Assembly: GCA_009760855.2 (NCBI GenBank)
Contig: WPIO01000152.1
Location: 338,501 to 402,500 of the forward strand
Source of the DNA: Cristatella mucedo
Taxonomy: Eukaryota; Bryozoa; Phylactolaemata; Cristatellidae
Direction: 5' to 3'
Length of the DNA stretch: 64,000 nt
This document shows, one piece after another, positions 36,901 through 45,657 of this stretch. Under the pieces are notes generated by a model. That model did not search any database, was not told the origin of the DNA, and worked only from the letters and a program-made list of their open reading frames with translations. The position numbers and the translations under genes are program-made. Within the stretch, counting starts at the first letter, position 1, and each line of letters begins with the position of its first letter.

Positions 36901-39900
36901 GGCCAAGCCTCTTTTACCATAAATAAAGGAGGCTGCTGAATCGGCAATTCTTTAATTTTCATTGCAGGGCCCAGTTGGTGAACCAGGCGACTCAGGCTCC
37001 CCTGGTCCACGCGGCCCTCGAGGAGACGACGGAATTCCAGGTCAGACAGGTCTGCCAGGAGCGCAGGGTGAGCAAGGAGACACCGGGCCTGTCGGCCCAC
37101 AGGGCATCCAAGGACCGCCCGGAGGACCGGTAATCACTTCAGACTGCTGCTGCAGCCGCCGCCGGCACGGCTGCCAGTTGCATAGCCAATCATGCTTGCA
37201 AGGCAGGCAAGCACTCTTCCTTCCGAGTGTCGATGTTGCCATACTACCTTCTTATTACAGGGTGTGATCGGTCCGAAAGGAGACCCGGGCCCTCCGGGCC
37301 AGCCAGGCCCGGCTGGTGAGCCTGGCAAGACCGGGCCAACTGGAAACGCCGGTTCGCTAGGACAGCCGGGCGAACAAGGCATCAAGGGTGATAAAGGTGT
37401 GACCGGTCTGAAAGGGTCGAAGGTAAGAAAGAAACCGACGTACTGACGTTAGGCTCTATGCTAGCAATGCTATTTATTTCTTCCTCGTTGCCATGGCCTC
37501 GGTCCGTCCAGAAGCTGCTACCCCGTGAGCCTTCTATAAGGTAAGTTCCTATGCTTCTCTCCAATCAGCTTGGTTAGCGCTATGCGAAATGACTGTATAC
37601 AGTAAATATACTCGAAAAGGGAACGCATTTTTGAACGCTGATGCGAAGTGCAATTCGAAAAGCGCTTTTCATCCTGCCGTGGTCTGTGCACAGATTTGTG
37701 CTTCTTCCGTCACGCAGGGTGAAACGGGACACATTGGCTCGCCAGGTCCATCCGGACCACTAGGCGAGAAAGGGCAAACCGGGCCCACAGGCATCCCTGG
37801 TCGACCAGGCGTTCAGGGAGAAGTCGGGCAGCAGGGCATACCGGGACCGGCTGGACAGCCTGGTGCCACAGGACCGCCTGGTGCGCCCGGACAACCAGGC
37901 CCGAAGGGTGAGCCAGGCAAGGATGGACCGCCTGGTCTAAACGGGCCCCCGGTAAGTGCAAGGCCGCCTGCTTTCGAAAGCTTTCAGTTGCAATGTCATG
38001 CTTGGCATCTTGGAAAATATATCGGTCTTAAAAATCCGCAAAACTTATATCAGGACGTGCACACAGCCTAATTCTGTAGGCGAATGGCCTCAGGATTTTG
38101 AAATTACTGCTTTCCTTGCATCCACCTATCTGCGAATGAGGACGTGCGAATGATTTTAATTATGCTGTACCGCCAGCTAAAGCTACCATGGAGGTAGTAA
38201 GAGCTTCACAAGGGGCGTCAGGAAACGTTTCATTATTAAAGGCTGCCTCATAGCATGATGAATTCTTTGCTTGTATATGAAATTTTATTTTATTATACCC
38301 ATATTGCCATACCAAGTGCTAAGCCGATGAGGGCTAAGCCTTGACCTTGCCTGCTAAAGGCCATATTTAGTCCTTTCACTGGCCTCCTTGGATGCATTGG
38401 ATAATTGCTCCTGAGGGTTTTGTCCTACATGCCTGGACCTACTTAAACCGTGCAGGGGAAATACTATCCGGTCGCTGATCACAGCAGGCATAATGGTTGT
38501 ACTTTTTGCTGATGATTCAAAATTACAAACGTGCATATTCATTCGCACAGTATACCGTGATTCGACTCGAGTAGGCTGGTGGCAATTTAAAGTTGAGGAT
38601 TCTCCTTGAGCACCGCAACAAGAACAGTCTCGATAAATCAATTCGTTTGAGCGTTTTGGGACCAGTGGTCGGAAAGTTTTGAGATCGGTCCCGATTGAGG
38701 CTATATTCATTTTCGGCGCATAGTCACACGGCAGACGATCTCCGATTGCTCTGAATTGTGCAAGTGCTGTCGAAGTGTTCAGCTTATTTTTAGCCTGCCA
38801 CATTTTTGGCGTTTCTGCCAAAGCAATAAATGTTCTCTGAGTTGTTACAAACACATTCCTTGCTCTCAAGGAATTAGATATTTTAATTCAGTCCATTGCA
38901 CATGGCGTAATACTATAACCTAAATTATGCATCTTCACGTGAGGTCCAAGGTTGGTATGGGTGGCTATACGTTAATTTGGGTGCCTTGGTGCACAAGGAA
39001 TCGACCAAAACATTTCGACATTATAGTATCTACCCTTCTGTGCATAGCACGCACCACACTCCGGTCTCTAGGCCTTGCACCATTGTGGGAAAGATTGAGA
39101 TCATCGCTCTTGAAAGCAAGATCATTCTCATAGTTGATGAGAACTGCAATCTTTTTAGAGACCGGCCAAACCATGCGTCGACCTGTACTAACTTCGGACT
39201 TAAGCACAGTGTACTGAAGCCTTTTCGTTTCTATGATTACCACTTGTTTTCACCCTGAATGTCTGCCAGAGTGCAAAGAATAATGCAATTTCAGGGTCCG
39301 CCAGGTACTGACACATTTTTCAACGAAATGAGAAAGAAAATGAAGCTGAGGCACAGACGGTCTGTCGCCGATGCCGAGGAAGTGCGACCTACCGAAAGCG
39401 ATGACCTTCCCATCGACAAGAATGGAGTGACTCTCGGTAAGTAGCACCACGTTCACTCGGCACAGAATTTCAGTAAGAAACCACGCTTCGCGGAGGCCCT
39501 TACTCTTCGCCAATCTGCCCCAGCGCTAAACGAGCCTAACTCCTCACTAACGGCCGTTTGTAGGAAGTGTGATTGAAAAGATCTTCACTGATATTGATGC
39601 CATCAAGTCCGAGATCGATGACATTCGATTCCCCAAAGGACAGAAAGAGAGCCCTGCCAGATCGTGCAGAGATCTCTACTACGCACATCCTGAATACAAA
39701 GACGGTGAGCTACAGTTCAAGGTTGTATGCCAACGAACTAGAACTAGAATAGTACGCAGCCAGTCCAGTGCAGCTGTTTAACTACAAAACTTGCAGGGGC
39801 GAATTTCTGTTAGCTTGGCGATTTAACTCGGAAAGAATTACTTATCTTTGAGTTACTTCACCTTGCATCCAGTTATTTTCTATGCAAGCGTAGCAGCTGC

Positions 39901-45657: not shown

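Follow-up and report, generated by a model that had tools for sequence, protein, structure and literature searches.

A fibrillar procollagen gene in a bryozoan contig

The window analyzed here, a stretch of 64,000 nucleotides from the bryozoan Cristatella mucedo, carries on its forward strand a gene for a fibrillar procollagen chain (Table 1). We rebuilt the C-propeptide from the raw sequence as six in-frame exons (39295-45657) that are separated by five GT-AG introns, keep to one reading frame and encode a product of 278 amino acids. The Pfam COLFI profile (PF01410) matched residues 53-277 of this product with 228 bits, spanning profile positions 4-233 of 233. From the minor helix to the stop codon the model comprises 25 exons and 1370 residues with no stop codon, an open frame that is partly by construction because the splice sites were picked by hand. 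The major helix runs for 1010 residues, counting two last triplets that sit in the exon of the C-telopeptide, and contains no cysteine. Two one-residue breaks of the Gly-X-Y-Z kind, GNGV and GKDP, were seen in helix exons 32924-33070 and 34899-35009, whose lengths of 147 and 111 bases are perhaps 144+3 and 108+3. A helix of about 1000 residues and a COLFI C-terminal domain are what is expected of a fibrillar collagen, though the two breaks mean that the helix is not strictly uninterrupted.

Several features suggest that the chain belongs with the type V and XI collagens. The N-propeptide pieces, joined by eye into a stretch of 199 amino acids, matched Laminin_G_2 (E = 3.1e-10, 41 bits against a cut-off of 22.9); Laminin_G_3 and Laminin_G_1 stayed under their cut-offs for the same joined piece and it returned no match named TSPN. 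Clade B chains are described as having a TSPN module together with a minor helix (PMC2852846, PMC8887668), and the minor helix is reported to be absent from vertebrate clade C chains (PMC8887668). Since both a TSPN-type domain (recognized through Laminin_G_2) and a minor triple helix are present here, the chain probably belongs to clade B (V/XI). The two helix breaks fit this clade poorly, such imperfections having been reported for types XXIV/XXVII (PMC2852846), but the chain otherwise looks like a clade B collagen. The RHRR sequence ahead of the C-propeptide matches the R-X-R/K-R motif noted in COL5A3 and some echinoderm chains (PMC10381214), and its place in the C-telopeptide suggests release of the C-propeptide by a proprotein convertase. 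Further, in alignment with collagens I and III the C-propeptide has a gap of 8 residues just ahead of QLAFLRLL. Invertebrate collagens are said to share a characteristic deletion of seven residues in this domain (PMC4450265), to which this gap may correspond.

The remainder of the window holds repeats and fragments of other genes. An interspersed repeat of about 216 bases occurs on both strands in 8 near-full-length copies (the query and seven others at 70-96% identity) along with shorter pieces, and three of the eight lie inside the collagen gene. Other, short repeats have a B-box-like core (GGTTCGATTCC in the one at 29800-29900) and are perhaps tRNA-derived SINEs; ARAGORN called no tRNA and Rfam gave no match in the window. 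Several open frames on the forward strand at 1-9500 resemble fibronectin type III domains by eye and appear to belong to a gene that enters from the left edge, and the sole piece scored in that region, from 1954-2265, matched fn3 with 29.6 bits. Near the right edge, an open frame at 62995-63492 on the forward strand resembles the terminal part of a reverse transcriptase from a non-LTR retrotransposon, and had no Pfam match at E up to 1.

Table 1. Positions of the collagen gene features and of the repeats, numbered from the first base of the window
Feature	Position	Strand	Remarks
TSPN-like (laminin-G fold) N-propeptide pieces	24648-24949, 25525-25687, 25788-25919 (span 24648..25919)	+	borders by eye
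Minor triple helix (14 triplets, located in exon 26285-26461) and non-collagenous linker	exons 26285-26461, 26792-26866	+	no cysteine
Major triple helix, 17 exons	28528..37951	+	first four residues belong to the linker
Helix end, C-telopeptide (RHRR furin-type site) and beginning of the C-propeptide	39295-39436	+	no cysteine
Exon with C1, position 2 and the coiled-coil stalk (Ile at six a/d sites)	39564-39704	+	
Position 2 (CPI 47), GCA = Ala for Cys	39683-39685	+	rebuilt exon, alignment
Exon with Ca2+ loop DPNLGVIND, position 3, C4 and C5	43137-43249	+	
Position 3 (CPI 64), GTG = Val for Cys	43166-43168	+	rebuilt exon, alignment
C-propeptide exon without cysteine	43533-43613	+	
Exon for C6 and C7 of the C-propeptide; gap of 8 residues against collagens I and III	43713-43928	+	
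Last coding exon, C8, stop codon included	45514-45657	+	
Copies of the ~216-base repeat	25925-26140, 63576-63791, 27242-27463, 10145-10353, 36348-36549, 11249-11456, 4726-4934, 53435-53665		
Short repeats with B-box-like core	29800-29900, 14457-14554, 33400-33470, 11924-11989, 46700-46830		

The C-propeptide lacks the interchain cysteine pair

Counted from the first cysteine of the C-propeptide, cysteines stand at 0, +32, +41, +104, +148 and +194, which are the canonical positions 1, 4, 5, 6, 7 and 8, with Ala at +6 and Val at +23 in the place of canonical cysteines 2 and 3. A sequence-only reading of this DNA had placed the six cysteines at 1480, 1512, 1521, 1584, 1628 and 1674 of its own model and the two replacements at Ala 1486 and Val 1503; its cysteine spacing agrees one for one with the rebuilt model, and both replacements were recovered in the rebuilt exons. 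The same reading took the missing pair to be the one that joins chains, and this is borne out by the alignment of Ala and Val with C47 and C64 of the solved collagen I and III C-propeptides. Five distinct sequences were matched among the solved structures, all of them collagen I or III and two in engineered fusions, and a three-sequence alignment gave 42% identity to the collagen I and 39% to the collagen III C-propeptide. According to the structural descriptions, bonds 41-73, 81-244 and 152-197 in C-propeptide I numbering are intrachain and 47-64 is interchain (PMC5353611), so that C1-C4, C5-C8 and C6-C7 pair within the chain and C2-C3 joins chains (PMC5353611, PMC6181919). By chance alone, two losses among eight cysteines would strike the C2 and C3 pair once in 28 times, which by itself is weak evidence. 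The stronger argument against chance is that the six kept cysteines are those pairing within each chain.

All six cysteines of the 1370 rebuilt residues lie in the COLFI domain, and the rest of the rebuilt chain, from minor helix through linker and major helix to telopeptide, offers no compensating cysteine. The TSPN-like pieces hold three cysteines, at the opposite end of the chain from the C-propeptide.

It might be argued that the gene model is at fault and that the two cysteines are carried on alternative or missed exons. Alternative splicing within the C-propeptide of the clade B chain pro-alpha1(V), reportedly described by Hoffman in 2010, offers a precedent. However, the Cys-2 and Cys-3 substitutes both lie inside exons, so the choice of splice junction leaves Ala and Val unaltered, and the frame is open over 25 exons (at hand-chosen sites). 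A six-frame profile search of the 3193 stop-free stretches of at least 12 codons in the window found no second COLFI-like exon: only the five domain-carrying exons were matched, which they would be by construction given that the search profile includes this chain, and the informative result is the absence of any other match below E = 1.3. Nor did a C1-C2-type motif or a DPNxGC motif occur elsewhere in stop-free stretches of at least 12 codons in any of the six frames of the window. We therefore regard an artefact of this kind as highly improbable. Across the whole window, no exon restoring Cys-2 or Cys-3 was found in six frames. Two further candidates were set aside. A pseudogene is thought unlikely for a model of 25 exons that yields 1370 amino acids without a stop, at splice sites chosen by hand. 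Sequencing error is unlikely because the Ala and Val codons are each three base changes away from TGC or TGT, so that one error at a site would be insufficient.

Stalk, calcium site and base

The C-propeptide of collagen I is described as having a three-stranded coiled-coil stalk at residues 8-29 and a base at residues 30-76, where each chain binds one Ca2+ and Gln62 and Arg39 hold a central Cl- (PMC5353611). The Ca2+ ligands of C-propeptides are given as Asp59, Asn61 and Asp67 (PMC13351861), and all three, which we took as the mark of Ca2+-templated assembly, are kept in this chain. The base residues R39, R42 and D43 are also conserved. Gln62, which with Arg39 forms the chloride site of collagen I, is replaced by Leu here, near both cysteine replacements.

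The stalk carries a regular pattern. Positions 10, 13, 17, 20, 24 and 27, the a/d sites of three heptads, are all Ile, so that over stalk residues 8-29 every a and d site (6 of 6) follows the pattern of GCN4-pII, a trimeric coiled coil with Ile at a and d (PMC9978483, PMC4786415). At positions 13, 17, 20, 24 and 27 the residues are V, L, L, I, I in collagen I and I, L, V, I, L in collagen III, a comparison that covers two solved C-propeptides aligned over 13-29 and 11-29, with position 10 outside the alignment. When the 22-residue stalk was shuffled, all six Ile came to lie on one a/d lattice in 37 of 200,000 shuffles. This points to a coiled-coil pattern and implies no preference of Ile over Leu. 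Two of the three g-e' pairs are oppositely charged (D16-K21 and E23-R28) and the third, V9-F14, is uncharged; at the first two sites collagen I has T-S and Q-R and collagen III has S-N and Q-I. D16-K21 and E23-R28 are thus two possible inter-helix salt bridges.

The sequence ahead of C6, in the exon that carries C6 and C7, is ASQKFTYFC and has no N-glycosylation sequon. This site is presumably the glycosylated position of human chains, and the PDB constructs read QQIT at the aligned position. A different sequon, NMT, directly follows C4 in the exon of the Ca2+ loop.

Possible routes of assembly

Taken together, the cysteine map and the trimerization features suggest that this gene probably encodes a clade B (type V/XI-like) procollagen chain that looks functional and has a C-propeptide built to trimerize without a covalent lock. 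Its assembly is probably non-covalent, driven by Ca2+ and the stalk. Three chains would meet in the ER through the Ca2+-organized base and the three-stranded stalk, which the all-isoleucine a/d core and inter-helix salt bridges D16-K21' and E23-R28' would stabilize, and a hydrophobic base contact of Ala47, Leu62 and Val64 would replace the disulfide as well as the part of the chloride site that Gln62 supplies. The triple helix would then zip up and make the trimer permanent, and a furin-like protease would remove the C-propeptide only after the helix had folded. C-propeptides lacking C2 are reported to form Ca2+-dependent non-covalent trimers in equilibrium with monomers (PMC6181919), and according to PMC13351861 the triple helix does not require interchain disulfides, nor do these suffice for it. 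The isoleucine stalk perhaps compensates for the missing disulfides, the comparison base being two solved chains. We are more doubtful of a fuller version, possible as it is, in which the covalent lock would have been swapped for the Ala47/Val64/Leu62 base contact together with a perfect isoleucine zipper and its salt bridges, giving a stable trimer that is secreted. If this were true, procollagen could fold with no C-propeptide disulfide between its chains, a route not covered by the published cysteine code.

Published statements on stable trimers count against a non-covalent homotrimer. The disulfides have been described as a thermodynamic sink that stabilizes trimers, and only chains with both cysteines are said to homotrimerize stably while chains lacking one need a partner (PMC6181919). 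The sequence-only reading was correct that alpha2(I) lacks just one of the pair (PMC6181919), and the alpha2(I) C-propeptide alone is reported to form no homotrimers on account of that one missing cysteine (PMC5353611). The cysteine code, which predicts from C2 and C3 whether homotrimers or heterotrimers form and is described as tested on natural chains lacking at most one of them (PMC6181919), expects both cysteines in a homotrimer chain and exactly one missing in a heterotrimer chain. With Ala47 and Val64, both are absent here, and under this rule the chain fits neither class, homotrimer or covalent heterotrimer. Having neither Cys-2 nor Cys-3, it can form no disulfide to any partner at these sites. 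It had been proposed earlier that trimers of this chain would lack interchain C-propeptide disulfides or that it joins other chains in a different way; the first part is what the sequence and the solved structures imply, and the second is possible.

The chain could instead be heterotrimer-only, forming no stable homotrimer and entering as the single third chain beside two disulfide-linked chains. This would be in keeping with the cysteine code, by which a chain without C2 or C3 can only join heterotrimers (PMC6181919), and with [alpha1(XI)]2alpha2(V), which is described as allowing a single disulfide bridge so that one chain can stay unlinked (PMC12562938). However, the code appears to have been built on chains lacking one cysteine (PMC6181919), and it leaves a chain lacking both with no covalent heterotrimer route. 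The g-e' pairs D16-K21 and E23-R28 would, moreover, both be satisfied in a homotrimer. On this evidence we consider an obligate heterotrimer unlikely.

Origin of the double absence and comparison with known collagens

The sequence-only reading implied that the absence of both cysteines is rare and described them as lost, and neither point is upheld by the literature. Cys-2, Cys-3 or both can be missing, and both are absent in some invertebrate fibrillar chains (PMC2852846). "Lost" is not justified from this sequence alone, since COLFI domains of the choanoflagellate Monosiga are also reported to lack both, as part of a set comprising Cys 2, 3, 5 and 8 (PMC2852846). The double absence is already on record, and this gene is another example of it rather than a novelty. 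The absence of both cysteines may be ancestral, and it is quite conceivable, though we would stop short of calling it probable, that the state is ancestral or clade-wide and does not represent a loss in this gene. The Monosiga domains and the invertebrate chains are consistent with such a history, and the three base changes needed at each position suggest that any loss is probably old. Limited scans of viral, phage and prokaryotic sequence collections, where an animal gene would hardly be expected, confirmed no relative. An ancestral state would be compatible with the non-covalent mechanism.

Among the literature matches listed, at the level of titles and abstracts and with most subscription papers outside the scope, we saw none that deals with how a chain lacking both cysteines assembles. 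A natural chain that lacks the pair and has its other assembly features intact would be a ready test of whether collagen folding needs a covalent lock, and of what can replace it. Given that the pattern has already been recorded in invertebrates and cyclostomes, the value of the gene is as a test system rather than as a surprise. The remaining interest lies in finding a cysteine-free interchain contact and an all-isoleucine stalk together in one chain.

The closest parallels in cysteine pattern are found in cyclostomes. All lamprey and hagfish chains are reported to keep cysteines 1, 4, 5, 6, 7 and 8, and lamprey colA2 and hagfish colA4 are modified at both residue 2 and residue 3 (PMC8887668), as is the chain described here; unlike it, they are clade A chains and vertebrate. 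The invertebrate chains of PMC2852846 share the absence of both interchain cysteines and are left unnamed, as are their species, in the passage that reports them. Human type V/XI procollagens have, by published description, the TSPN module and the minor helix in common with this chain, and its furin motif is as in COL5A3. They differ in their cysteines, alpha1(V) being described as keeping both and alpha1(XI) and alpha3(V) as lacking C2 (PMC12562938). The C-propeptides of collagens I and III (PDB 5k31, 4ae2) share the domain and the Ca2+ ligands but differ in having the Cys47-Cys64 interchain bond, Gln62, a mixed V/L/I stalk core and 8 more residues before QLxFLRL. Finally, the stalk shares its Ile at a and d positions with GCN4-pII; GCN4-pII, however, is an engineered variant of a yeast zipper, and this is a resemblance of pattern rather than homology.
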